IMG/VR virus record: IMGVR_UViG_3300017613_000539 | Coordinates: 1-34,125 of that record | Reading direction: 5' to 3' (one strand) | Origin: a virus | Length of the DNA stretch: 34,125 nucleotides | Shown here: positions 10,304 to 32,394 of the stretch, one piece after another | Numbering within the stretch: position 1 is the first letter of the stretch | Layout: each line of letters starts with the position of its first letter | Position numbers and translations under genes: made by a program | The notes under the pieces: model-generated | Databases searched by the model: none | The model's input: the letters and a program-made list of their open reading frames with translations, nothing else | Told to the model about the DNA's origin: nothing

Positions 10304-11806
10304 ATGGCTAATGAACGCATATATAATGACCCGGCTGGGGGTTCTCAATCCAGTGTAGGTGATGTTCAGTTTAATGAATTTTACTGGCAGAAAAAAGCTC
10401 TTATTGAAGCACAAAAAGAGCAATATTTTGGTCAGATGGCTGATACAGTCTCAATGCCGAAGCATTTCGGTAAAACAATCAAAAAGTACCATTACTTACC
10501 TTTGTTAGATGATTCAAACATCAACGACCAGGGTATTGATGCTGCTGGTGCAATCACAGAGTTTAAAGCTACTGTTGCACTTCAACCACCAGAAGGTGTT
10601 CTCGCCACTTCCGGTGCTAATGTAATCTTTATTACTGCTTATGGTACTGGTGCTGCTGCTGCAACTGCTGCTGCAGAAACTCAGGCTAATCTTGAAAGTG
10701 CTGTAATGAAGGCTGGTCTTACTGTAGTTACTTGGGATACTAACTGGGCTACTACAATCGCTGATTATATTACAGCTGGTTGGAAAGTATCTGATAGTCG
10801 TACTACTGATGCTGATTTTGTTGCTACATTCCCAGCTCAGATGGTTCCAGTATATGATGGTGGTAACTTGTATGGTTCGTCTAAAGACGTTGGAACCATC
10901 TCAGGTAAAATGCCAGCATTGACTGAAACTGGTGGTCGTAAGAACCGTGTTGGTTTCAGACGAGTTCAGTTAGAAGGTTCTCTCGAGAAATTTGGTTTCT
11001 TCGATGAGTACACTCAAGAGTCTCTGGACTTTGATACTGATGCAGAGCTATCCATGCATATCAATCGTGAGATGATTCGTGGTGCTAATGAGATCACTGA
11101 AGATGCTCTTCAGATTGACCTTTTGAATGCTGCTGGTGTTATCCGCTTCGGTGGTGATGCTACTGCAACAGCTGAAGTAACTGGAGCCAATGGTTCTACT
11201 GCTTCTGTACCTACTTATACTGACCTGATGAAGTTGAGTATTGACCTGGATAACAACCGTTGCCCTAAGTCTACTAAGCTGATTACTGGTTCTCGTATGG
11301 TAGACACCAAGACTGTTAATGGTGCTCGTTATATGTATATTGGATCAGAATTGATTCCAACAGTACGTAAAATGACTGACATTAGTGGTTCAGGTGTTGG
11401 TAGTGGATTCATCTCTATTGAGAAGTATGCTGCTGCTGGTACGATTGCTCGAGGTGAAATCGGACAGGTAGATCAGTTCAAGATCATTGTTGTACCTGAA
11501 ATGATGCACTGGGCAGGTGATGGTGCTGTTGAAGGTACTAATGATGGATACCGTTCTACTGGTGGTAACTATGACGTATTCCCAATGTTGGTTGTTGGTT
11601 CTGAGTCATTTACTACTATTGGTTTCCAGACCAACGGTAAGAGTGTCAAGTTTAGCATCAAGCATGTTAAGCCTGGTTCTACCCAATCTTATAACTTCCA
11701 AGATCCCTACGGTGAGCTCGGATTTATGAGTATCAAATGGTACTATGGTTTCATGGTACTACGACCAGAGCGTATTGCTTTGATCAAATGTGTAGCTGAG
11801 TGGTAA
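10304..11806 (+). CDS. Major capsid protein, N4 gp56-like (500 aa)
   Basis: AGGAG at 10292-10296 lies seven bases before ATG 10304. The sequence carries hallmarks of N4-type capsid proteins: NLYGSSKDVGTISGKMPALTE near residue 190, then GGRKNRVGFRRVQLEGSLEKFGFF, an ITGSRM stretch, and a C-terminus of DPYGELGFMSIKWYYGFMVL followed by ERIA. The fold should be HK97-like (family knowledge). It is longer than N4 gp56 (about 400 residues). The extra length includes an Ala- and Thr-rich stretch, roughly residues 95-185, just before the conserved NLYGSS. Codon use is rich in GCT and GGT, as expected for a highly expressed protein. A strong terminator follows immediately. Confidence 0.93.
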   Translation: MANERIYNDPAGGSQSSVGDVQFNEFYWQKKALIEAQKEQYFGQMADTVSMPKHFGKTIKKYHYLPLLDDSNINDQGIDAAGAITEFKATVALQPPEGVLATSGANVIFITAYGTGAAAATAAAETQANLESAVMKAGLTVVTWDTNWATTIADYITAGWKVSDSRTTDADFVATFPAQMVPVYDGGNLYGSSKDVGTISGKMPALTETGGRKNRVGFRRVQLEGSLEKFGFFDEYTQESLDFDTDAELSMHINREMIRGANEITEDALQIDLLNAAGVIRFGGDATATAEVTGANGSTASVPTYTDLMKLSIDLDNNRCPKSTKLITGSRMVDTKTVNGARYMYIGSELIPTVRKMTDISGSGVGSGFISIEKYAAAGTIARGEIGQVDQFKIIVVPEMMHWAGDGAVEGTNDGYRSTGGNYDVFPMLVVGSESFTTIGFQTNGKSVKFSIKHVKPGSTQSYNFQDPYGELGFMSIKWYYGFMVLRPERIALIKCVAEW

Positions 11807-12840: not shown

Positions 12841-14706
12841 ATGGCTGAAATACTTGTAGATGAAATTACCTCCAATGAAGTTGAAGGTACGGGTGTCTTT
12901 GATGAATTAATGTCCACAATCCAAACTCGTTTAGAAAATGAGTTTAAGAAAGGACGAATCAAAGGACCTGATTACGCTAAAGTATATTTGGGAGCCATGG
13001 AATCAACCATAGCTCAATCCATTGGTTTTGTATTAGGAAAGCAGCAAGCTGATAAACAAGCCGAATTAATAGCAGAACAAACCCTTAATGCTACAAAAGA
13101 GGGTGTTTTACTCGATGAACAATTATTAAAACTACAAGCTGATAAAGCTTTAGTTAATCAACAGTTACTCAATGCTCAGGCTGAACAAGCTAAAACTGAA
13201 GCAGAAACACTCATCATACCTAAGCAAGGAGCTCTCCTGGACGCTCAGGAGCTCAATACTGATGCTGAGACTAATTTGGTTAACCAGAAGGTATCAAACC
13301 TCTCTGCAGAGGCTCTGAACATACCTAAAGAAGGTATTGTACTGGATAATCAATCCAGCAAGCTTTTACAAGAAATTGATTTAAGTACTCAGCAGGAAGC
13401 TAATTTAGCAGCAGAAGCCTTGAATATACCTAAACAAGGTACATTAATTGATAACCAGGCTGCTAAAGTCATTGCTGATACTAATTTACTTGCACAGGAA
13501 GAACTGAACATGGTTCAGGAAGTCCTCTTATCACAAGCTAAAGTACGTGATATGGAAGAACAAGTTAAATTGACTATAGCTCAAGCTGCAAAAGCTATCC
13601 AAGATACTAATCTGAGTAAGAAACAAGGACTCAAATTAGATCAAGATATTTTGGTTGCACAGCAAGAAGTACTGAATGCTGTTCAAGAAGTTGCATTCTC
13701 CAAAGCTAAAGTTAAACAAATGGAAGAGCAGGTTCAGCTTACTATTGCTCAAGTACATAAAGCTATCGGAGAAGGTAAACTTACCGAAAAAGAAATTGAG
13801 AAAATGTCTCAAGAGATCCTGGTTGCTGTACAAGAGGTTCTTTATTCTCAAGCTAAAGTATCTCAAATGAATGAAGAAGCATTACTTACAGCAGCTAAGG
13901 TTAAAGCCACAGAGCAACAGGTAATTAATACTACCATTGAAGGCCAGGTGCTTATGGGACAGGCTGACAAGATGGAGCAAGAGGTGTTAGTAGCTCAGCA
14001 GGAAGTACTTAATATGACACAGCAAGTGCTGAAATCTGCTGCTGAAGTATCAATGCTTGGAGTTGAAGAACTAAAAGTAGGTTCTGAAAAGACCTTGTTG
14101 GATAATAAAGCTCTTACTGAAGTGGCTATAGAACTTAAAACAGATCAAGAAACTGCATTACTTACTCAGAAAATACTCAATATGGTTACTGAGGAATTAA
14201 AGCTAGATGGTGAAATTGCCTTGATGGTTAAAGAAGGCCTCAAGGTCGATCAAGACATTGCCTGGAGCCAACAGAAAGTTACTAATTTGGTTTCTGAAGA
14301 ACTTAAGATTGATCAGGAAACTGCTCATATTACACAGAAGACAGCCAATGCAGTTATTGAAGGTACAGTGCTTACAGCTCAAGAGCTGAAAATAGATTCT
14401 GAAACATTGTTATTGGGTCAAAAGACCAAGACTGAAGAAGCTCAAATTAAAGATACTGTAGATGCAGTAGCTGTTGTTGGTGTAGTTGGAGATCAAAGAT
14501 TATTATACCAAGCTCAAACTGCTGGTTTTGCTAGAGATGCTGAACAGAAACTTGCTAAGATTCTTGCAGATACATGGAATATTCGTAAATCTGCAGTACC
14601 TGATACTACTTCTGCTGATTTCACCAACCATCTTGGTGATGTTAATATAGGTCAGGTAATATCTAAAGCAATGGAAGGCATCAATGTTACTCCTTCTCAT
14701 ACATAA
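12841..14706 (+). CDS. Long heptad-repeat coiled-coil virion protein, N4 gp54-like position (621 aa)
   Basis: AGGAA at 12831-12835 lies five bases before ATG 12841. Residues about 60-545 are almost wholly helical, rich in Ala, Gln, Glu, Leu and Lys, with very little Pro or Gly. Short motifs recur: IPK(Q/E)G at 127, 162 and 197 (Pro positions); a VQEV...AKV motif starting at 225, 281, 330 and 393; and LKxD with Asp at 435, 456, 470, 491 and 519. Every spacing is a multiple of seven, as in a canonical coiled coil. A short non-repetitive end follows. The position between capsid and ejection-protein genes suggests an internal core, tail-tube or ejection-channel part. Coiled-coil proteins from this region are known in N4-like phages, but the role here is inference. 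Confidence 0.78.
   Translation: MAEILVDEITSNEVEGTGVFDELMSTIQTRLENEFKKGRIKGPDYAKVYLGAMESTIAQSIGFVLGKQQADKQAELIAEQTLNATKEGVLLDEQLLKLQADKALVNQQLLNAQAEQAKTEAETLIIPKQGALLDAQELNTDAETNLVNQKVSNLSAEALNIPKEGIVLDNQSSKLLQEIDLSTQQEANLAAEALNIPKQGTLIDNQAAKVIADTNLLAQEELNMVQEVLLSQAKVRDMEEQVKLTIAQAAKAIQDTNLSKKQGLKLDQDILVAQQEVLNAVQEVAFSKAKVKQMEEQVQLTIAQVHKAIGEGKLTEKEIEKMSQEILVAVQEVLYSQAKVSQMNEEALLTAAKVKATEQQVINTTIEGQVLMGQADKMEQEVLVAQQEVLNMTQQVLKSAAEVSMLGVEELKVGSEKTLLDNKALTEVAIELKTDQETALLTQKILNMVTEELKLDGEIALMVKEGLKVDQDIAWSQQKVTNLVSEELKIDQETAHITQKTANAVIEGTVLTAQELKIDSETLLLGQKTKTEEAQIKDTVDAVAVVGVVGDQRLLYQAQTAGFARDAEQKLAKILADTWNIRKSAVPDTTSADFTNHLGDVNIGQVISKAMEGINVTPSHT
13213..13461 (+). repeat. 35-residue repeats (IPKxG) in the coiled-coil gene
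   Basis: Three related units have their conserved Pro at residues 127, 162 and 197, an exact 35-residue (105-base) period. Each reads IPK(Q/E)G followed by a hydrophobic pair and LD or ID and an Asn, Ala or Gln stretch. The spacing equals five heptads. The units are diverged at DNA level, so the duplication is not recent. Confidence 0.8.
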
Positions 14707-19620: not shown

Positions 19621-22600
19621 ATGGCAGATCGCAACCCTATCTTTACTGATCCATTAGAAGGAACCGGATTAGGTTCCTTTTCTTCTAATACCCTTTTAGG
19701 TCCAGAAGCTAAACAACAACAGATTGAAGAAGCCTCTCATCGTAAGCGTCAAGCTTTGGAGATGAAGCAATTCAAAGAAAACCTGCAAGGTGGTTATTAC
19801 AGCAATCAAAGCCGTGATAGAACTGCCGCTGAATTAGCTCAAGATTTCAAAGTAGCCTTACACGGTGGCGGTAACTTATTAGCTACTGGTTTATATGGTG
19901 CTGCTAATCTTGCTGGTGCTCCTATCACAGCCCTACAAGAAGCCATGACAGGTGAACATGTACCTAGTGTTGATGAAGCTCTTACACAAATGAGTGGTGG
20001 TGAGTTAGGTTTCCAGGCTCTTGCTGATAACAGATCAAATTATATAGAAGAACATGGTTCAGATGTCCTTAAGGCTGCTTTACAACAAGAAGCTCAAGCT
20101 GATGCTCAATGGGATGCACAAGAAGAAGCTCGTATGGCAGAGCGTGAAGCTGCTGGTAAAGGTTGGTTAAGAAGCAATATAGAGGAAATAGCAGGTGATG
20201 TAGCCCATACAGCTACCCAAGCCTATGAAAACCCTGTAGCAACCACACATGCAGCCCTAGAGTCCATTCCTACTATGATTGGTGCAGGTCTTGTAGGTAA
20301 AATGAGCCAAGGAGTGTTACAAGCAAATCTTGCTAAAAAGGCCAGTAAAGCTGCTGCAGATCGTTTTCTTAAGACTGAAGCAGGAAAAGCTGCTATCAGA
20401 AAGACAGGTGAGAAAGGTGCTATTGGATTTAATGCAGCTCTTGAAGGTCTTACAGCCGGAGCTGATGCCCGTCTTGATATATTAAATACTCCAGTAGAAG
20501 AATTACGTGAAGGTTCTCCTTACTTCCAGGAATTGGAAGCAGAACATGGTACAGAAGTAGCCCGCCAAAAATTGGCTGATAAAGGTATGTACATTGCTAC
20601 TGCTATTGCAGCAACCACTGGTGGTGTAGCTACTAAAATTTCCGGGGCAGGAAAACTTGAAGGTAACTTCTTTAATAAAGATAGTGCTTTTGGAAATATG
20701 TTCCTGACTCGAATACTCAAAGGAACTGCAGTAGGTATTAAAGATGAAGCTCAAGAAGAAGCTATGCAAGGAGCAGGTGGTCAATTTGCTGCTAATGTTG
20801 CAGCCAAATATACTAAAGACCCAGACCAGGCATTAGGTGAAGGTGTTACCCGAGCTACAACTAAGGGAGCTATTATTGGTGGTCTTGCTGGTGGTGGTAT
20901 GGCTGCTGTTACTGAAGTACCCAAACAAGCTGCTAAATCTGTTGTAGATAACAAAGGTATTGTTCAGAAGACCAAGGACAAAATTGCTAACTATAAAGAT
21001 AGTAAAGTTGCCAATGAGAAAGTAAAGGCAGCAGTTAAAGCTAAAGATTTCCGTGAGATTACTGATGATAGTCGTGATGACTTCAATAGAGAAGATGCTA
21101 TCCAGGCTCTTTTAGATCCTAAAGGCTTACCTGAAGAAGGTGAGGCTCAAGAAGAACACCTCAATGAACTCGAATATCATATTGAAAAAGCTCATCATGA
21201 TGCAGTTGTAGCTGTAGATAAGCTTGAAGAAAAAGAGGATGCTTCCCCTGAAGCTCTCAAAGAAGCTAAGAAGAATCTTGCACTAGCTACAAAGAAGCGT
21301 ACTCGCCAGTACAGAGCCTTTCAGGAACTACAAGGTCTTAACGAGAAAGAACGTGTAGATGAGCGTCTACAAGCTGCTGAGAGCCTAATAACAGCAGAAA
21401 AGGATGGTAACGAGGAATTAGCACAGAAAAGCCTTAAAGTCCTTAATAGAAGCTTCTATAACAGCCCTGATGGTCTGACTGAGAAAGAAGCTACAGCCTT
21501 ATATAAAAGTAAGTCAGCTAGTCCAGGAATGAAAGCTCTAGCTAAGCAACGATTGGATATTCTCAAAAATATCGATGAAGTAAGTAACGATATCCGTAAG
21601 GGTAAAGGTAACTTCATTGGTGTTGATGTGATGCGTAAACGTGCTATGGCTGCTGTTGTACAAGGACATCAAGCCAAAGCCATAGGCAGAGTAAAAGATA
21701 TTGTTGATTTTGGTGGTCAGCAGGTTGATCGTCATAATACGATGAAAGAAGGTTATGCAGCTTGGAAGAAGCTTCGTGGTCTTAAGAGCAAAAACACCAA
21801 AACAGCCAAAGCTTTAAAGAAAACGGTTGATGCTTCAATTGAAACCCTGTCTGAGAATAGTGGTAGAAAATTCTATTTCAGTAATGGTACACAAAAAATT
21901 ATTGACCAGGCAGTTAATGATATTGCATATATTGATAAGGTAGCTAAAGAAGCAGCAGCTGCTCATGACCATGGCTTCTCTGATAAATATGACGGGCCAA
22001 CAAGCATATCTAGCTCTGTGCGTGGGCAGCAAGCCCAAAGCACAGATGTTACTGACAATCCAGAAATAAGAGAATTACAGTCAAAAACCTCTAAAGCAAT
22101 TATTCAACATGGTGAAGATAAACAAGCAATTAGAGTAGAAGAAATGGGTAAAAAAGGTATAAAAAACCCATCTGATGTCAGTGTGTATTCAAAGAAAGAT
22201 GCAGCTAAAGCTAGTATGGCTACACAATTCATAGGGGAAGGTGGTGAAGGAACCTCTACTAAAGCTTATCAAGAAATTTATGATGATAAAGCTAATACTG
22301 GAACATATGAAAAAGGAGATGCTGTATTTATCTCAGTCAATGGAGGAAATAGCAAGACTAAAGTAAATGCTCTTAAAGATGGTAAATTAGCAGGTGTATA
22401 TGAAAACATAGATAAAGCTATGGCTGCTGGTGCTACATTAATTACAGATACTGAAAAACACCGTAATAGGTCTTATAACCAGCCAGGTGAAGGAGCTATT
22501 GCTAAATATATACAGAATAGTCCTCATAAATATCATTATAAAGAAGTTACCAAAAATGGAGAAAAAGTTGGTACATGGATTCCTGTTACCTCATATACAA

Positions 22601-25600
22601 AAGCACAGTCTAAAGGTAAAACCAAAGCATGGGGTTTTCATGCTAAACGTCCTAATGAATTACCAGAAGGAACTGAAGGTTACGAAGTATCTAGTAAAGC
22701 TAGTATGGCTAAAGATAATTTACCTATTACTGAAGGTGATCATCGCTTCAGTGCTTTCAAAGCTAAATTAGCTAATGGTAAAACTATTGAAGAAACATAC
22801 CAAACTACCATCAAAGGCTTCAAAACCTTAAAAGAAGGTAAGGGTAAAAAACCAACCATTGCTTATTCTGAGCAAGACAGTAAAGACTTATATAAAGCTT
22901 TGTGGAGACAGTACCTTAATGAAAACCCCACATTACTTGATGAGCTAAGAGCCAATGCTCAAGGTAAAATACTTACTGATGCTTATTGGAAGAAAGGTGC
23001 TGTTGTAAACCAAGCCCAAACTCTTTCAGAACTTCTCAATGAAAAGCCTAAAGATACTGAGAAAGCCAATAAAAGATTACCATATGATTTAACACATATA
23101 GAAAATTACTCCTCTGTACTTGAGAAAGCTAAGGCAGATGAAAATATATCTGGTAAAGCTATTCAATCATTGGAGACACTTCCAAATAGTACTGCTGCTC
23201 GCTTCTTTGTACAAAAATATGAAAGTCTGGAAGGTGACTCACAAGGTATAGCAACACAAGACGAACACCTTATTAAAGCACTTAAAGATCATAAGAAAAG
23301 CGTAAAAGATTATAGTGATAAAACACCACCTACTACTAATGACCGTAAATTAGATTATTTGGTTCAAATCGCTGAGAAGTATATTCCTGAAGACCCTACT
23401 CTAACTAATATTAAGAAGAGGATGGAAGCCAGAGATACTTTTACTTATGAAGATGTAACTGCTCTCTCTGCAAGTTTATTAACTAAACTTTCTAAAACTA
23501 TTACTCAACAACGCAGAATAGATGCTAAAGGCAAAGATAAAATAATAAAAGATCCTAACTTTATTTTAGCTAAAGAAGTTCTTACTAAACGTCTAAGTTC
23601 TGCTGCTAAAACAGTACATCCAGTACAACAAAAAGATCCAGAAGGTAATTTATACTCACCAGAACCTTATGAAGTAACTGCTATTGATAACGTAATATCT
23701 ACATTATTTGATGCTATAGACTTAGATCCAAAAACGACTAATTTACTGCAAAGACATAATAATTTCTTTGAAGCATTAGAAGCAAACCCTGCTTTATTGG
23801 ATTCTGCTGAGTTAACAGAAGCTGATCAAATAGCTATACCTGTTATTACTGAATTTCAGGCAAAATTTTTAGAAGAACTAACCCAAAGTTTAAAGCCAGA
23901 AAATCCTCAATTCATGGAGAATAGTCCTTTCCTTTATTTCTTTGGAGATTATTCTGCAGCTACAAAAGAGAAGCTTAAAGCACAATATAATTTAATCAAT
24001 AAAATTAGACCAAAAATAGAAGAAACTACTCGTCCTGATTTGGCTAAAAGAATTGATTTAACTAAAAGATTAAATTACTTGAAGAAAAATGATCCTAAAA
24101 ACGAGGAAGAAATTGCTTCAGTAGAGAAAACCAGAGCTAAATTAAATAAGAGGATTACTGAAGCACGACAACCAATGACAGATGCAAGAGCTATTATTGA
24201 TGACATTATTGGGGAACAAAACCCAAACCTAGATGCCAATCTTATGAGTAGTATTGCAATGGTTGCTCTTAATTTTATTGGTACTGGTGGTAGAAAAACA
24301 ATTAAGAACACAGAAGTAGGTATTAACATGCTACTCCAGCATAAAGACTCAAAAAGAAGAGTCGAAGGTGCAGAGTGGCAGATGTTTGGGGAAATTGGTA
24401 TTACACGCTCCGGTGCTGTTACTGCTATGGGTGCTGAAGTTCTCAAAATGTTAGGAATCAAATTTAATAAAGATGCAGACGGTCGTTTTGAAACTCTAAT
24501 AGAAAATCATATTGGTGGCTTAATAGTAGGTACATTACAAAATATGGATATATTAAGAGCCCAAACTGTTACTGCAAAACAAATGCAGCCTTTCCTTGAG
24601 CACCTTGGAGAAACCAATGAGAACCAGGGATCTACAGAATTCATTCGTATTTATACTGAAGATGTTTACCGTGAGACAAAAGAAGGTAAGTTTGAGGAGT
24701 TTCCTGAGCCTAGAAGAGATATTGCAGAAATCATAGAAGCAATACGTAATTCCGATGATGTATTAAGTAAGTTATTTAAATTAAAATCAAAGATAATTAA
24801 GCCTAAGAAGGAACGCCCTAAAACAACTGAACTTGTCGATGGTAAGCTTAAGAACCGTAAGATTAAGCGAGGTACAGATAATAAAGAATCTCAAGAGCAA
24901 CAGAAGATCCGTGAAAAACATAGCCAGCAGGAGCTAGGATTCAAGCAGACCATGGAAATATATGAATGGTTTGATCCAGAACAAGCATGGGAGCTTGCTG
25001 GTTTAGTTACTGACTATGAAACTACTGAACACATTACTGAACATGCTGGTTTTAAGGGACGTAACGATGCTCTCAAACGTAGCCATGAAAATACTATGGA
25101 ATGGTTCAGAGAGATAGGTCCTAATTCTACTTTCTATGCAACGCATAAAACAGCCAAGAATAACCGTGTACATCAAGAAGCTAATCTTATTGATACTCAA
25201 GGTGATACTACTCAAAAACATTTGGTAGGTATTAAAAGCCATCTTGTTACCGTAGATCCTAAAAACAAAGCACACATGAACCAGTTCTTATCAGCAGTAG
25301 CTGAATCACTTGGTTTAAGTGGGGATAAGGAATTAACTCATGTCCTCAAAGATCAATTAGAAGAATTATTTAATCCGGCTGAAGATGCCACAGAAGAAGC
25401 CAAAGAAAATGCGGCTAAACTTAATGCAGGTATCGAAGCTATACTTGCTTTTGATAAAGATAAGTTTGCTAACAAAGAAGCCAATCAGAGAGCCATACTG
25501 GACGCTGCTGCTGTTGGTGGAGAGAATGCCTGGTCTTTAGATGGTTTACGTGCCTACGCTAACTACAAGAAGGCTGATGGCGGTAAATTTAAGACTGACC

Positions 25601-28600
25601 TATTCAGAGAAATTGATGGTGTCACTAATGGTGTTGCTATTGGTATGCTTGAATTAGCTGCTGCCCCTGATTTTGCAACTATGAAAACCATGTTAGAAAG
25701 AACTGGTATGTTCATGGAACATGAAGAAGGTGAAGTATATAAAGATTATGGTTCTTACATAGCAAATCCACGTAACAATGACTCATATAAAGATATGGGT
25801 ATTGAATGGAGTAAGCAATTAGAAGAACACCGTAAAGGGCTTAAACCAAATCAAGCTAAATGGTTAAAGGGATTGGATTCTTTCGTTAATCCTATGACTG
25901 AGAAAAACTATGTAGACGGCTTCTATTTAGAGCAAGCTACTAGTATAGGCCGTACTTTATCTAAAGATCCAGTAATGATTACTAACTATGGTGCTGCTAT
26001 AAAGAAAGTAGTGGCTGCATTTGGTGACAAGATTATTCGTAATATCTATAAAGATATAGCAAAAGCTAAGGTGGACATGGATCAAGATGCTCTTGATCAA
26101 ATCCACAAGACTTTAACTCTTATTGTTAATAATGGAAATACTAAAGCTTACTTTAAAGATAAAAAACCAGAGTTTACTGAAAAAGATTTTAAATGGACAA
26201 AAGTTCCAAAATATAAAAAGAAAGATGGTAAATATTCTACTCATAAAAAAGTTTATAATGCTGCGGCTCAAAAAAGACTTGATGCTTGGAGTAAGAAGAA
26301 GCAAACAGCTCAAGATAAGATGATCACTTTACCAGAACTTACTGTTGAAAACGCCATAAATTGGAGCCTACCAAAAGGCAGTAGAGATAATATAACCAAA
26401 AAAATTGGACAATCTTATGGTAAAGCTCTCGGTATTGCTATTGATTCAAGGTTTGCTACATTTATAGCTAAACGCCAGGAATTAGTGGAAGCATCTAGAA
26501 TAGCTTATGAGGGTTTCAAACTTATATATGATGCTGAGCTTGAAAAACAAATGATGTTAAAAGCTAAAGCTCATAATCCAAAGGCTGTATATGGGATGGA
26601 ACTATCTAGGGTTGAACTTAAAGAATTAGCGGAACAGCTAATTAAGTTTCAACCAATATTTAGACCCTTCTTTGCAACTACTGAGGACACTAAAAAAGAT
26701 CCATTAAGTACTAATACATTAGATGAAGGTATTCTTACAGCTAAGTTAGAGAATAAGAGACAAATTAATCGTCCACCTTTTGAGGTTAGTGTTAAGTTTA
26801 ATAAACCATTAGTAACTAATATAGCTAAAGAAGATGCAAAGGGTAAAATAACACGTAATAAGAAAGGGCATGCTGACTTTTTCCAAAAAAGTAAAGATAG
26901 TATGTCTCTCTGGGGTTCCAGAAGAGAATTTACAGATGGTGGTGTAAGTGGTCCTATTCTAGGCATACATGCCATTGACTCTGCAGTTATGATGAGTGTA
27001 TTAAAAGAGTTTGAAGCTCTTAACATACATGATGCTGCGGCTTTCTCTATACATGATGTAATGAAAGGTACTGAGAAGCTTAATGAATCTTTCCATAATG
27101 TCACTACAAATTATTCTTTACGTCAATCATTTGAGGATATGTTATTAAGAGTTACAGAGAATCTGAAAACATATGATACTGAGAATGGTACTGCTTTCTA
27201 TGATCAATTAGATGCTATGCTTATCACAAGAAAGAGTGAGCAAAAAGATACTGCTGGTGACAGAGAAAATGCAGCCAATAACTATATGGGAATTACTTTT
27301 GATGGTTGGGTTCCATTAACACCACATGATGATATTACAGCTTTTAAAACCAGACGAACTAATGTTAATAAAGACAAAACGTGGCTACCTGCTAAATGGG
27401 TAGATGAAAAATATATTATAGGTGAAGACCAGAATCGTTTGGATGCATATGTTGAGAATTTCAAAGCTACAACTACTCAAGATGAATTATTCCGACAGGA
27501 AGTAATCAAAGCTATTACTCACTGGCATCAGTATAGTTCAGGACAGGGTGGTGTATTTGAAACACCCAATGAAGGCTACAAGTTTAATAGAGATTTATTC
27601 AAGACACCTGCCGAACGCTTAGCTGAAGAAACCCTTACTCAAATAAAAGAAGAAGCAGCAGCTGAAGAAGCTGAAGATGGTTTATACAGATTACTTAATT
27701 CTGTAGGACGTACTCAAACTGGTGAGATTGATGGTAGATCTAAGCGAAGATTATGGAAATATGCTGAAGAAAAAAATCTAACAAAACATTTACAAGAGAT
27801 CCTTGATGGTAATATCAAAGGACAGGAAGCTGCTGACAGACAGCGTGACCATATTGTTAAATATTTGGCTTCTCTGGCTTCTGAACCTGACTATGAACAG
27901 TTTGCAGTAGCTTATATTGTTGCTCTGAGTAACCCGGAGGAATATCCAGACCCGGACTCTCAGAAAGAATATGTAAAAGCGAATACTCGAGTAGATCCAA
28001 ATAGAAAGAATATTATTGATCGATTGTTTAAAAATGTAGAACGTAAGTTCTCCAGACAAGAACGCTTTGAGAACCTCTTTGGTAAGGTACGTCAAGCTGA
28101 TATTGAATCTGATTTAGTCAGTGATTATACAACTAATGATGTCCTTGCATATATTGAAGCCTATGTTAATGAAGGTAATGCTAAAGATATAGCTAAAGAG
28201 AAGAATGAAAAGAAAAACAAAAGTCTTGTATTCCAAGGTAGAGTTGCTGATCGTCTTGTACGATTAGTTAAAACAGCTAAAAGAAAAAGAACATTCCCTG
28301 AAGCACTAAAAGAAATTGATGCTTGGGCTAAGAAGGAACGTGGTGTAAAGAATCCCCATACTCCTACTGTTAACCAACACAGTGCTATTAATGTTTATCT
28401 TGGTAGGTTACGTACTAAGTTCCCTACTCTGGATACTGACACCTTTACATTTAAAGAAGCTGATACCAAGCAGACTACTGATGATCTACTTGACCAAGCC
28501 AAAGACCAGACAATTGATACTGCTGCTTGGGTTGATAGTATTGCTGATCAAATCAATGATACTGATAATACTGCTAAAAAGAAGCAGTTAAATGAGATAC

Positions 28601-31600
28601 ACACAGTAGCTAAAAAGATACATGAAGATGTGACTGAAAGAGGTGCTAAACCCGAAGAAGCTATCAAACGACAGTTGGATGAAGGTAACAAGAAAGCCTC
28701 TGAAAATGCATTACAAGATTATGTAGACTTCCCAGGTAAAACTCTTGGTTCTTCCTCAAAGAAAGTTAAGGGCAAATTCAATGATAAATTTACCAGAAAC
28801 CTTAGCGGGGCAAATGTTAAAACAATCTATGAGGAGATGGGTCCTCTCGGTAATGTTATTGATAGTACTGAACATGACGAGCATCTTCGCTCCATTGTTG
28901 GTGATGTCATTGCAAAAGTAATTGATCCAATAGCTGATAGACAACAAGAACATGTTAAGTTGCTTCGTAGAAATGAAGGTGATGAAACATTTGGTGAGGT
29001 TGGTGAAGATGGAAATGTATATTTAGTTACAGCTCTGGGAACACAACATCTGAGTACCAAGATGAGTGCCAGAGAGACATACGTACATGAATTAATACAC
29101 GTAGTAACCAAAGAAGCTGTAGATAGTGATACCTGGGCAGCTAGGGAATTAAAGAAGCTATATGAAAGTGTACGCACTCATACAACTGATGGTAAACCAA
29201 CTATTGCTCCTGAAGATTTCCTTCGAGAAGGAATCAAGAAAGGTGATAATAATTATGCTGAAGAAATGAAGTTAGCCAAGCAACGCTATAACTATATCTT
29301 CGGTGATCAGATTAAAGTTAATACCCATACTTATAAAGATTCTTATGATAAGAATCAAACTTCCCGTACTCATAATGCTCATCATGAATTCTTGGCTTCT
29401 GGATTATCCAATGCAGCCTTTAAGAAAGCACTGAAGAAAATTGATGGTGTAACAAAACTTATAGCTGAAGAAGATGCTTCTATTCTTGATAAACTGGTTA
29501 CATTCTTCAAGAACATGCTGAATAGATATTCAGATCGTATCACTGGCACTTCCAATATGAAGGCTGATGAGAAGCTTGATAGGTTATTCAAAATACTTTC
29601 TGGTTTGGAGCAAGAGAAGAAATCTACACTTTATAATACTTATGAGAATGCAATCACCCCAATATCCTTTGCTGTTAACGCTGTACTCAAAGGAGCCTTG
29701 CTCCCTGTGAAAGTTCTGATAGATTCCCCACTCATACAGAAAAGTAAGTACAAGGCTGTGCGTGAATTAGGTAATATTGCTAAAAAAGCGCATAAAAGTA
29801 AGTATGAAATTTATTTTGAGCATCTTGATAAAATAATAGGACAGTTTAAAACTGATAAATATACCTGGTTAGAAGGAACCATGGATGAACTCCGTGGTAA
29901 CACTGATGCAAATAACTATGCACAGAAACTTGGTAGAAGATCCAATATGGTTATTGATCAGCAACGTAAACAAATTGAAAATAATGTGATGAGTCACCTG
30001 GTTGAAATGTTTGATGATATCACTCGAGATGAAAAGATCGCTCTTACCAAAGCAATCCTTAAACCAGATTTCCAAATATTCCATGAAAGAGGAGTGGAAG
30101 GTGACGGTAACTTCAGACCTGCGAAATACAATCCAAAAGAAATTGTTAAACTCTTTGAGAAAAACAGTCCTTTCTTACAGAAAGAAATTGATAGCCTGGT
30201 CAACAGAATCAGAAAGAACTATCCGGCTGGCAAGCATTGGTATAGTCGTATGGCTATTAATCTTGGTACTTGGATGGCTACTGGGAATACCACAGAAGAT
30301 TTTACTCTTCTTAACGCCCACAATATAGCTACTGCTCATGTCACTGACCTTAAGGTTAGTAAGAAAGACCTACCCAAGATTACAGAGTTAATCGAGGAAT
30401 TGGCTTCTTTACAAGCTATTAAATCTACTGCTGATGTACATAAGCGAGCAATAGTCCCAGTAATAGAACGTGAGTTTGCTAAACCAGAAGATCAAAACGG
30501 CTTCCTGTTTGCTCTTGCTATGCATAAGCGATTACGTGAACGTGCTAAAGATGAAATCTTTAATGGTAGTCCTACCCAAATGATTAAGGGTTACACTAAA
30601 GAAATATTTAATCCAAATATTACATTCATTATGGCTCCTGCTTCTGGTAAAGAGGATCTCAAGACCCTTGGTTTTACTCAGGGTGATATAGTCCAGAAAG
30701 ATGATGCTGATCCTAATGAAGAAACCCTTCATATGTATGTCAATAAGCAAGGACTCACTCGTTCTATGATGGCAGGTGTGATGTCTTACACGAGCGATAG
30801 ACAAAAGGGTGCAACACTTTTGGATATCCATGCCCAACTTGGTCATATTAATCCTGCTCTTGCAGAGAACCTGGATTTAAAAGATGTTGAACGTGCCAAG
30901 GCTAAAGCCATTAGGAATATTGTTGCTGGTAAAGCAACCGACAAGAAGACCACAGATATAAGTCTGATACCTGTTATTGATGAAAATGGTAATCCCGGAA
31001 CCTATCGTTACATGATGAATGAAATCAACCGTGACACTATCCTGGAAAAAGATAATGATGCTTTCAGAATCCTTGGTTCCATGGAAGGTGCAATCATCGA
31101 CAAACGTGAATCAAAGATTATTAATGATGATATGGTGCAAGCTCTTTATGATGATTACCAAAAGAATTATAAAAAACATAAAGATGCTGGTTATTTCCAG
31201 ATTGGTCCACATGTTACCAACAAACGTTGGAGAGAAGCCTATCAAATGCTTCCATCGCATACTCGCCAAACAATTCGAGATGTTTGGGGATCTGATAATA
31301 TGTTTGTACCTCGGAGCATAGCTCCGACCATCTTCGGATTTAGGAAACTTGGTTTTAGTGGTTTACACAAGACTGAGAACCCAACCAAGACCCCTGGTAT
31401 GAAGATGATAAGTGAGATGCTTAATGATTTATTCGCATTCATGCTCAATAGGCCTATACCTGTCTTTATGGAGCAGGTATGGCAAGAGTCCGTCAAGTAC
31501 ATCAAAAACGCCATTGTAATCAAATCAGGAGCTATCCTGGCAGGAAATATCATTAGTAATGCCATCATACTTAAAGTACACGGCTTATCATGGCGTGAGA

Positions 31601-32394
31601 TTGTCAAGTATCACGCTGAGGCTCTTATTCACGCTAAAGCATACAAACGTAATGCTAAAGAAATAGACCGCTTACAACGCAATCTAGAGCTTATTCCATC
31701 CCTTAAAGATAAGGCTGATGTTAAACGTCAAATTATCATGTTGGAAGATGAGAATGCTAATAACCCTGTCCGTGAATTAATTGAGGAAGGTATTCATCAA
31801 ACCATTACTGAAGACATTGATCTTAAGGAAGATAATTTCTCTTATCGTGCTAAATTACTTGATAAGATTGAAGACAATGATTTTACTCGTAAACTTATTG
31901 GTGGCATACCTAAACCCATTAAGAAAGTAGGTATGGAACTCTTTATGACTGATGATTCTGCCTGGTATCAGTTTATGAAAGATACTACTCAAATGAGTGA
32001 CTTTGCTTCACGTTATGCAATGCATAAATATAATATGAAGAAAGGTGATATGAAATATGATGATTCCATACGTCAAATAGTTAAGTTCTTTGTTAACTAT
32101 GATTTACCTACACATGAGGTAACTCAGTATCTTAATGACATGGGTGTATTTATGTTCTCCAAATTCTTCTTCAGAATACAAGCTGTTATGTTAAATCAAG
32201 CTGTGGAGAACCCAGAGAAGGTATTAGGGTTGTTGTTACTGCAGAACTTATTGGGAGTGGATGTTGAGGATATATTTGATTCAGTAGGTACTCCACAACA
32301 CTTGATGAACAAGGTTAACTTCAATATGTGGGAATTGTTTGAAAATCTATGGAAAGCCCCATTATTTACTGGAGCAATCCATAGAGCGGCTTAA
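19621..32394 (+). CDS. Giant virion RNA polymerase, N4 gp50-like (4257 aa)
   Basis: This is a T7-family single-subunit RNA polymerase packaged in the virion and ejected to transcribe early genes (N4 knowledge). Motif A is EIDGVTNG (Asp1999); motif B is RTLSKDPVMITNYG, with Arg2111, Lys2115 and Tyr2123 spaced exactly as in T7 and N4; motif C is SIHDV (Asp2479), preceded by HAID at 2450-2453. The Arg of a degenerate T/DxxGR motif is probably Arg1849 (AKNNR). Residues 1-450 hold Gly- and Ala-rich hydrophobic stretches (81-105, 216-226, 323-337, 416-430) and an EAQEEAMQ segment typical of phage polyvalent proteins. A conserved-looking module lies at about 866-1000, and HELIH at 3156-3160. The C-terminal 950 residues are helical and end IHRAA. 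AAGGA precedes the ATG. N4's protein is about 3500 residues. Confidence 0.92.
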   Translation: MADRNPIFTDPLEGTGLGSFSSNTLLGPEAKQQQIEEASHRKRQALEMKQFKENLQGGYYSNQSRDRTAAELAQDFKVALHGGGNLLATGLYGAANLAGAPITALQEAMTGEHVPSVDEALTQMSGGELGFQALADNRSNYIEEHGSDVLKAALQQEAQADAQWDAQEEARMAEREAAGKGWLRSNIEEIAGDVAHTATQAYENPVATTHAALESIPTMIGAGLVGKMSQGVLQANLAKKASKAAADRFLKTEAGKAAIRKTGEKGAIGFNAALEGLTAGADARLDILNTPVEELREGSPYFQELEAEHGTEVARQKLADKGMYIATAIAATTGGVATKISGAGKLEGNFFNKDSAFGNMFLTRILKGTAVGIKDEAQEEAMQGAGGQFAANVAAKYTKDPDQALGEGVTRATTKGAIIGGLAGGGMAAVTEVPKQAAKSVVDNKGIVQKTKDKIANYKDSKVANEKVKAAVKAKDFREITDDSRDDFNREDAIQALLDPKGLPEEGEAQEEHLNELEYHIEKAHHDAVVAVDKLEEKEDASPEALKEAKKNLALATKKRTRQYRAFQELQGLNEKERVDERLQAAESLITAEKDGNEELAQKSLKVLNRSFYNSPDGLTEKEATALYKSKSASPGMKALAKQRLDILKNIDEVSNDIRKGKGNFIGVDVMRKRAMAAVVQGHQAKAIGRVKDIVDFGGQQVDRHNTMKEGYAAWKKLRGLKSKNTKTAKALKKTVDASIETLSENSGRKFYFSNGTQKIIDQAVNDIAYIDKVAKEAAAAHDHGFSDKYDGPTSISSSVRGQQAQSTDVTDNPEIRELQSKTSKAIIQHGEDKQAIRVEEMGKKGIKNPSDVSVYSKKDAAKASMATQFIGEGGEGTSTKAYQEIYDDKANTGTYEKGDAVFISVNGGNSKTKVNALKDGKLAGVYENIDKAMAAGATLITDTEKHRNRSYNQPGEGAIAKYIQNSPHKYHYKEVTKNGEKVGTWIPVTSYTKAQSKGKTKAWGFHAKRPNELPEGTEGYEVSSKASMAKDNLPITEGDHRFSAFKAKLANGKTIEETYQTTIKGFKTLKEGKGKKPTIAYSEQDSKDLYKALWRQYLNENPTLLDELRANAQGKILTDAYWKKGAVVNQAQTLSELLNEKPKDTEKANKRLPYDLTHIENYSSVLEKAKADENISGKAIQSLETLPNSTAARFFVQKYESLEGDSQGIATQDEHLIKALKDHKKSVKDYSDKTPPTTNDRKLDYLVQIAEKYIPEDPTLTNIKKRMEARDTFTYEDVTALSASLLTKLSKTITQQRRIDAKGKDKIIKDPNFILAKEVLTKRLSSAAKTVHPVQQKDPEGNLYSPEPYEVTAIDNVISTLFDAIDLDPKTTNLLQRHNNFFEALEANPALLDSAELTEADQIAIPVITEFQAKFLEELTQSLKPENPQFMENSPFLYFFGDYSAATKEKLKAQYNLINKIRPKIEETTRPDLAKRIDLTKRLNYLKKNDPKNEEEIASVEKTRAKLNKRITEARQPMTDARAIIDDIIGEQNPNLDANLMSSIAMVALNFIGTGGRKTIKNTEVGINMLLQHKDSKRRVEGAEWQMFGEIGITRSGAVTAMGAEVLKMLGIKFNKDADGRFETLIENHIGGLIVGTLQNMDILRAQTVTAKQMQPFLEHLGETNENQGSTEFIRIYTEDVYRETKEGKFEEFPEPRRDIAEIIEAIRNSDDVLSKLFKLKSKIIKPKKERPKTTELVDGKLKNRKIKRGTDNKESQEQQKIREKHSQQELGFKQTMEIYEWFDPEQAWELAGLVTDYETTEHITEHAGFKGRNDALKRSHENTMEWFREIGPNSTFYATHKTAKNNRVHQEANLIDTQGDTTQKHLVGIKSHLVTVDPKNKAHMNQFLSAVAESLGLSGDKELTHVLKDQLEELFNPAEDATEEAKENAAKLNAGIEAILAFDKDKFANKEANQRAILDAAAVGGENAWSLDGLRAYANYKKADGGKFKTDLFREIDGVTNGVAIGMLELAAAPDFATMKTMLERTGMFMEHEEGEVYKDYGSYIANPRNNDSYKDMGIEWSKQLEEHRKGLKPNQAKWLKGLDSFVNPMTEKNYVDGFYLEQATSIGRTLSKDPVMITNYGAAIKKVVAAFGDKIIRNIYKDIAKAKVDMDQDALDQIHKTLTLIVNNGNTKAYFKDKKPEFTEKDFKWTKVPKYKKKDGKYSTHKKVYNAAAQKRLDAWSKKKQTAQDKMITLPELTVENAINWSLPKGSRDNITKKIGQSYGKALGIAIDSRFATFIAKRQELVEASRIAYEGFKLIYDAELEKQMMLKAKAHNPKAVYGMELSRVELKELAEQLIKFQPIFRPFFATTEDTKKDPLSTNTLDEGILTAKLENKRQINRPPFEVSVKFNKPLVTNIAKEDAKGKITRNKKGHADFFQKSKDSMSLWGSRREFTDGGVSGPILGIHAIDSAVMMSVLKEFEALNIHDAAAFSIHDVMKGTEKLNESFHNVTTNYSLRQSFEDMLLRVTENLKTYDTENGTAFYDQLDAMLITRKSEQKDTAGDRENAANNYMGITFDGWVPLTPHDDITAFKTRRTNVNKDKTWLPAKWVDEKYIIGEDQNRLDAYVENFKATTTQDELFRQEVIKAITHWHQYSSGQGGVFETPNEGYKFNRDLFKTPAERLAEETLTQIKEEAAAEEAEDGLYRLLNSVGRTQTGEIDGRSKRRLWKYAEEKNLTKHLQEILDGNIKGQEAADRQRDHIVKYLASLASEPDYEQFAVAYIVALSNPEEYPDPDSQKEYVKANTRVDPNRKNIIDRLFKNVERKFSRQERFENLFGKVRQADIESDLVSDYTTNDVLAYIEAYVNEGNAKDIAKEKNEKKNKSLVFQGRVADRLVRLVKTAKRKRTFPEALKEIDAWAKKERGVKNPHTPTVNQHSAINVYLGRLRTKFPTLDTDTFTFKEADTKQTTDDLLDQAKDQTIDTAAWVDSIADQINDTDNTAKKKQLNEIHTVAKKIHEDVTERGAKPEEAIKRQLDEGNKKASENALQDYVDFPGKTLGSSSKKVKGKFNDKFTRNLSGANVKTIYEEMGPLGNVIDSTEHDEHLRSIVGDVIAKVIDPIADRQQEHVKLLRRNEGDETFGEVGEDGNVYLVTALGTQHLSTKMSARETYVHELIHVVTKEAVDSDTWAARELKKLYESVRTHTTDGKPTIAPEDFLREGIKKGDNNYAEEMKLAKQRYNYIFGDQIKVNTHTYKDSYDKNQTSRTHNAHHEFLASGLSNAAFKKALKKIDGVTKLIAEEDASILDKLVTFFKNMLNRYSDRITGTSNMKADEKLDRLFKILSGLEQEKKSTLYNTYENAITPISFAVNAVLKGALLPVKVLIDSPLIQKSKYKAVRELGNIAKKAHKSKYEIYFEHLDKIIGQFKTDKYTWLEGTMDELRGNTDANNYAQKLGRRSNMVIDQQRKQIENNVMSHLVEMFDDITRDEKIALTKAILKPDFQIFHERGVEGDGNFRPAKYNPKEIVKLFEKNSPFLQKEIDSLVNRIRKNYPAGKHWYSRMAINLGTWMATGNTTEDFTLLNAHNIATAHVTDLKVSKKDLPKITELIEELASLQAIKSTADVHKRAIVPVIEREFAKPEDQNGFLFALAMHKRLRERAKDEIFNGSPTQMIKGYTKEIFNPNITFIMAPASGKEDLKTLGFTQGDIVQKDDADPNEETLHMYVNKQGLTRSMMAGVMSYTSDRQKGATLLDIHAQLGHINPALAENLDLKDVERAKAKAIRNIVAGKATDKKTTDISLIPVIDENGNPGTYRYMMNEINRDTILEKDNDAFRILGSMEGAIIDKRESKIINDDMVQALYDDYQKNYKKHKDAGYFQIGPHVTNKRWREAYQMLPSHTRQTIRDVWGSDNMFVPRSIAPTIFGFRKLGFSGLHKTENPTKTPGMKMISEMLNDLFAFMLNRPIPVFMEQVWQESVKYIKNAIVIKSGAILAGNIISNAIILKVHGLSWREIVKYHAEALIHAKAYKRNAKEIDRLQRNLELIPSLKDKADVKRQIIMLEDENANNPVRELIEEGIHQTITEDIDLKEDNFSYRAKLLDKIEDNDFTRKLIGGIPKPIKKVGMELFMTDDSAWYQFMKDTTQMSDFASRYAMHKYNMKKGDMKYDDSIRQIVKFFVNYDLPTHEVTQYLNDMGVFMFSKFFFRIQAVMLNQAVENPEKVLGLLLLQNLLGVDVEDIFDSVGTPQHLMNKVNFNMWELFENLWKAPLFTGAIHRAA
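22216..22620 (+). other. Module of unknown function inside the polymerase gene (residues about 866-1000)
   Basis: The stretch begins MATQFIGEGGEGTSTKAYQ and continues with a Tyr, KGDAVFISVNGG, an AGATLITD strand, RNRSYNQPGEG and a YI/Y-rich end. I recall small stand-alone phage proteins and polyvalent-protein segments with the same order: ATQFIG.G, SST or TST, VFxSxxG, AGAT..TD, R..YN.GE. I cannot name a function. The alternating alpha/beta pattern suggests a compact Rossmann-like or similar domain embedded in the larger protein. Confidence 0.5.
25165..27057 (+). other. RNA polymerase catalytic core within the giant gene (Arg1849 to motif C)
   Basis: The span covers the probable T/DxxGR Arg1849, motif A Asp1999, motif B Arg2111/Lys2115/Tyr2123 and motif C Asp2479. 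The order and the Rx3Kx7YG spacing agree with T7 (Arg425, Asp537, Arg627/Lys631/Tyr639, Asp812) and N4 (Arg424, Asp559, Arg666/Lys670/Tyr678, Asp951 in mini-vRNAP numbering). The Tyr-to-motif C distance (356) is longer than in N4 (273) and T7 (173), so an insertion lies between motifs B and C. By analogy the full domain probably extends over residues 1440-2630. Confidence 0.85.
29086..29388 (+). other. HExxH metallopeptidase-like motif in the polymerase gene
   Basis: HELIH at residues 3156-3160 is followed 100 residues after the first His by HHEFLASGL, whose Glu3256 could be the third zinc ligand. Zincin-like domains fused into giant phage polyvalent proteins have this layout (family knowledge). 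The surrounding region is a mixed alpha/beta stretch with acidic loops. Activity is not shown. A chance HExxH in a 4257-residue protein is possible, but the flanking ETYV strand and downstream EFLA make a true domain more likely. Confidence 0.6.

Follow-up and report, generated by a model that had tools for sequence, protein, structure and literature searches.

Does the HExxH motif in the C-terminal half of a giant phage polymerase mark an active metallopeptidase, and how does it relate to the site known from phage N4? The gene lies in IMG/VR virus record IMGVR_UViG_3300017613_000539, and the entire stretch of 34,125 nucleotides analysed here is referred to as the window. A sequence-only reading of the window had proposed a zincin-like site in the virion RNA polymerase (vRNAP) and had supposed that no description of such a site existed for N4 gp50. 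The latter supposition is wrong. For N4 gp50 and related proteins, a zincin-like metallopeptidase domain was reported by Iyer et al. in 2017 (PMC5512222), a review from 2021 repeats the zincin-like domain for Pectobacterium phage CB1 (PMC8472413), and a cryo-EM preprint on N4 from 2025 locates an HExxH motif in subdomain C1, residues 2124-2375 (PMC12633501). A zincin-like domain in vRNAPs is thus already published, and the claim of novelty falls. What the large C-terminal part does in N4-type vRNAPs is posed as an open question in the same preprint, which also reports the 'C2' region to be devoid of a structural homologue (PMC12633501). What appears to be new is (i) that there are two tandem zincin positions, (ii) that the intact site is swapped between the two paralogues, and (iii) that N4 C2 contains a dead zincin; the swap and the dead zincin were not found in the literature searched, which comprised openly accessible papers and is no proof of novelty.

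The vRNAP gene and its neighbourhood

The open reading frame at 19621-32394 on the plus strand, on which all vRNAP features described below are likewise located, encodes a protein of 4257 residues, of which residues 43-4247 match PHROG 2206 'virion RNA polymerase' (E = 0). Full-length similarity, along with neighbouring structural, head and tail genes, identifies the product as a vRNAP of N4-like phages (Schitoviridae type), homologous to N4 gp50. The gene order is as in N4-like phages, with portal, major head, virion structural and tape-measure-like genes upstream, and genes for a Holliday junction resolvase and a single-strand DNA binding protein downstream on the other strand. Two of the upstream products seem to be enlarged. 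The major head protein (10304-11806, 500 residues) aligns end to end with a family in PHROG that has 356 positions, and thus seemingly carries about 140 extra residues, while the entire length of a virion structural protein (12841-14706, 621 residues) is matched to about 250 positions of PHROG 2050, which seemingly indicates a large insertion as well.

Within the vRNAP, a pattern search points to His2478-Asp2479 (27052-27057) as the probable motif C (HD) of a T7-type polymerase domain, so that the zincin would lie downstream of the polymerase domain. The motif is followed by an inter-domain segment (residues 2641-3045; 27541-28755), by a zincin-like domain designated M2 (residues 3061-3300; 28801-29520), delineated by profile matches and AlphaFold2 models, and by the remainder of the C-terminal region (29521-32391), which corresponds to N4 C2 beyond the segment homologous to M2 and was delineated by tblastn and a tree. 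A tblastn search with the C-terminal region (29872-32391) yielded matches in 468 phage records.

A conserved metal site in M2

As the sequence-only reading had stated, translation places both HELIH (residues 3156-3160; 29086-29100) and Glu3256 (29386-29388) in this vRNAP. The two histidines of HELIH are predicted metal ligands and Glu3157 is the predicted general base, while Glu3256, located in a later conserved helix, is the predicted third ligand. HELIH is the sole HExxH in the 4257 residues, and the other large plus-strand open reading frames of the window, which lie between 165 and 19612, contain none. One may ask if the motif arose by chance. For a protein of this composition about 0.16 HExxH motifs are expected, and shuffling the sequence yields one in 14.7% of copies; with a chance probability of about 0.15 the motif by itself is weak evidence. 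The wider pattern, with a Glu four residues ahead and HEF at the right distance downstream, was encountered in 0 of 2000 shuffles.

It is conservation that decides. Among 30 phage vRNAP records collected by overall similarity, 29 contain HExxH in the region examined. In an alignment of 27 intact M2 copies, with overall identities of 20-30%, both histidines, the glutamate between them and Glu3256 are invariant (27/27). Since these copies were chosen by HExxH and not by the third Glu, the invariance of Glu3256 lends good support to its proposed role as third ligand. Glu3152 (29074-29076), four residues ahead of HExxH, is likewise present in 27/27, and Asn3264 (29410-29412) is invariant in the alignment of intact copies. 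In contrast, dead M2 copies have retained the first His in 0/112 and the third Glu in 0/112 cases. Because relatives as distant as 20-30% identity keep the motif together with the correlated third Glu, a chance origin is rejected, and we consider its probability negligible.

Predicted fold and structural matches

AlphaFold2 models of the window M2 domain were computed from 8 and 16 sequences (pLDDT 79.2 and 78.8; pTM 0.77 and 0.81, respectively). Both place HExxH and Glu3256 on helices adjoining a three-stranded segment, that is, in a zincin-type fold. In model numbering, an N-terminal helix (44-69) precedes strands 74-79, 85-88 and 94-98, the HExxH helix (111-129) and the Glu helix (213-224), so that the features of a zincin-like MPTase domain are predicted to be present: a conserved HExxH helix and later-helix Glu, and three strands with an N-terminal helix.

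The best match among solved structures is N4 gp50 residues 2377-2595, both for the first model (Z-score 11.0-11.1; r.m.s.d. 3.5-4.4; 174-183 residues) and for the second (Z-score 9.2; r.m.s.d. 4.2; 175 residues). It is followed by the zincin domain of anthrax lethal factor (Z-scores 7.7 and 6.4 for the two models) and then by PPEP proteases (5.7 and 5.5). These Z-scores of 5 to 8 over 130-154 residues are moderate, and values below 8 call for caution; they were obtained by alignment-based comparison, while a Foldseek search of the PDB had lethal factor at a high rank but no match with E below 0.001. A search of a viral library ranked other vRNAPs first; polyvalent proteins came further down, as did a crAss-like 'RNAP associated protein fused to zincin protease'. 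Taken together, the invariance of the metal-site residues, the helices in both models and zincins as best solved matches after N4 support the proposal of the sequence-only reading that the domain is zincin-like with Glu3256 as third ligand.

HExxH also occurs in enzymes other than peptidases, and an alpha-ketoglutarate-dependent HExxH oxygenase might be considered, as this family is cited beside zincins in the N4 preprint (PMC12633501) and the oxygenase domain 8s5f was matched by the first model with a Z-score of 3.6. However, higher Z-scores (5 to 8) were obtained for lethal factor and the PPEPs, and the matches listed for the second model do not include the oxygenase. A non-peptidase enzyme thus appears very improbable to us, and fold and motif combined make a zinc peptidase the likeliest chemistry.

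Two tandem zincin positions

Separate profiles constructed from N4-type (M1) and Vibrio-type (M2) copies revealed two adjoining positions in vRNAPs, with M2 directly downstream of M1. HELIH of the window is located at the M2 position, and M1 corresponds to N4 C1. Intact and dead M2 copies are homologous over their full length (hhalign, E = 3.7e-34). Intact M2 and M1 are related as well, in a profile-profile match that spans the region from HExxH to the third Glu and further (E = 8e-13) and ties the window domain to the zincin domain described in N4. A Pfam search with the window M2 domain gave no match above cut-off, and the link to the polyvalent/vRNAP zincin was established by this profile-profile comparison with M1. 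Searching the PDB with a profile of the window domain yielded N4 as the sole significant match, and a scan of viral_contigs with the single sequence of the domain had zero matches.

An intact-M2 profile built without N4 matched N4 residues 2441-2604 (E about 5e-11) and gave the HExxH-bearing domain of N4 a score of only 5 bits, so that the window site corresponds to an N4 segment free of metal residues. A direct orthology of window HELIH and N4 HELVH is therefore ruled out, since profile and models match N4 2441-2604 and 2377-2595, and not 2124-2375. The dead M2 of N4 comprises about residues 2379-2588, within C2. As the M2 models match N4 2377-2595 best, it appears from the alignment that N4 C2 begins with a dead zincin, which would account for its first ~210 residues and supply a fold for them. 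In the solved structure the dead M2 keeps the fold (Z-scores of 11 and 9.2 to 2377-2595).

Judging from the sequence profiles, the vRNAPs of N4-like phages have, or once had, two adjacent zincin-like domains, located after the polymerase domain and ahead of the C-terminal region. In the window phage it is M2 that is intact, and M1 escapes detection. Its inter-domain segment occupies the place of M1 in N4-type vRNAPs; a degenerate M1 was rejected, as the M1 profile finds none there. For this segment of ~400 residues, neither tblastn nor a search of viral_contigs identified a relative, and Pfam gave nothing above cut-off.

Which copy is intact

A survey of 143 loci revealed M1 alone intact in 115, M2 alone in 22, both in 5 and neither in 1. 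One of the 22 M2-only loci (L026) ends just before M2, so that its M1 cannot be judged, and the single 'neither' case has to be read with the reservation that viral_contigs loci were found with motif-derived patterns and such cases are hence under-sampled there. When counted as clusters at 70% identity, the corresponding numbers are 75/20/4/1. At least one intact copy is thus retained in 142/143 loci. All intact M1 copies exhibit His, Glu, His and Glu at the metal site (120/120). The sequence-only reading had regarded loss of HExxH in close homologues as speaking against the site: the motif is indeed lost at the orthologous position in N4 and most relatives, but each of these keeps an intact copy about 200 residues upstream.

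In a tree of the region downstream of M2, every M1-only locus falls on one side of a branch (support 91/95). Within the M2-intact group, the M2-only state requires six changes, of which five are forced by well-supported branches (counts including L026). These changes presumably represent repeated loss, rather than gain, of M1, which would have occurred only where M2 is intact. The Vibrio phages phi 1 (L140) and VCO139 (L141) differ in the clean in-frame presence or absence of the ~230-residue M1, with flanks that are about 90% identical. Together with the M2-only loci, this pair indicates that M1 is dispensable where M2 is intact, and natural pairs of this kind, in which one phage has M1 and the other lacks it, lend themselves to direct comparison. 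Absence of M1 along with a dead M2 was never seen among the surveyed loci, with the exception of Alteromonas phage AD45-P3 (L025), in which M2 reads EEVVH: the first His is replaced by Glu, and the third Glu is kept. This is the sole vRNAP without HExxH in the fetched stretch, and its record is flagged as possibly frameshifted. Separately, one vRNAP-like open reading frame (L032) contains an extra HExxH (HEMGH) at residue 1096, which precedes the M2 HExxH of that protein by about 1370 residues and lies far outside the M1/M2 region. The one-or-the-other pattern of intactness suggests that one intact site is apparently maintained by selection.

Likely function

Dead copies keep the fold, and one HExxH copy is retained in 142/143 loci; hence, folding does not require the metal residues, and metal-dependent chemistry is indicated. 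Neither zinc nor enzymatic activity was reported for any vRNAP in the literature searched. A metal bound for structure, or for contacts to DNA or the ejectosome, would be compatible with the absence of a reported activity and with N4, where the domain of dead M2 is retained without the site. Yet a structural site would require the ligands only, the fold persists without it, and the general-base Glu is present in 147/147 intact copies (these were chosen by HExxH, and 29/30 phages is the fairer figure). We regard a non-catalytic metal as distinctly improbable.

From these computed features we infer that M2 is an intact second zincin and probably a one-zinc endopeptidase. One zinc ion would be held by His3156, His3160 and Glu3256, and Glu3157 would act as general base. 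The enzyme would work once the polymerase is ejected, during or after ejection, and its substrate would be a protein of the host or of the ejection apparatus (ejectosome), rather than the vRNAP itself in a constitutive self-cleavage. The latter point needs to be weighed against self-processing, in which the zincin would cut the vRNAP after ejection and thereby free the polymerase from an inhibitory C-terminal region. Autoprocessing was proposed for polyvalent proteins by Iyer et al. (PMC5512222), and the C-terminal region of N4 inhibits transcription by the polymerase (PMC12633501), so that a cut near M1/M2 would be activating. However, N4 vRNAP is packaged unprocessed (PMC5512222) and recombinant gp50 gave no evidence of degradation (PMC12633501), which makes constitutive self-cleavage unlikely, and ejection proteins without a polymerase annotation are matched by M1-type zincins as well, which favours an ejection-linked action on a host or ejectosome protein. 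Self-processing is thus rather unlikely in our judgement, and we prefer a protease acting on a host or ejectosome protein. If M2 is indeed a protease, phages would introduce a protease and a polymerase as a single chain, with the substrate as a novel contact point to the host.

It is tempting to speculate more broadly, albeit with less than even confidence, that the zincin module of vRNAPs has two positions and that catalytic integrity must be preserved in at least one copy, that the intact site has switched between the paralogues, that N4 C2 starts with the inactivated zincin, and that the activity is that of a required co-ejected protease, shared as a module with the ejection proteins of other podophages. 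The swap pattern itself indicates that selection maintains a metal-site activity in the C-terminal part, with His2228, Glu2229 and His2232 as its candidate residues in N4.

Comparison with known systems

The zincin domain of anthrax lethal factor (M34) and PPEP/Zmp1 have HExxH and a later-helix Glu in common with window M2, and may resemble it in the overall predicted fold. In contrast, no sequence similarity was detected in the searches run, and Z-scores are moderate.

The vRNAP M1 profile matches zincin-like segments of podophage ejection proteins, namely the internal virion protein 9sfn_G (E = 1e-14), PhiM1 gp48 (8vb2_A; 7e-7) and gp10 (23sg_S; 1e-4), of which 9sfn_G keeps HEAVH and the Glu. 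They comprise about 1240-1340 residues, are annotated as internal or ejection proteins and not as RNA polymerases, and match M1 but not M2. A protease is not mentioned in the paper on the PhiM1 ejectosome, nor is protease processing of the tape-fused polymerase of P23-45 mentioned in its paper.

In N4 gp50 (9pnr, 9pnt; PMC12633501), residues 2377-2595, the best match of the window M2 model (Z 9 to 11), are part of C2 and contain neither HExxH nor the third Glu, while HELVH (2228-2232) is located in C1, that is, in M1. The MPTase domain of Iyer et al. (PMC5512222) shares with window M2 the HExxH helix, the later-helix Glu and the three-stranded sheet, and likewise belongs to an ejected giant protein, in which it is flanked by the polymerase and by the C-terminal domain. 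However, the N4 domain delineated there (about 2130-2448) is centred on M1, whereas the intact site of the window phage resides in the paralogous M2 of a vRNAP with undetectable M1.
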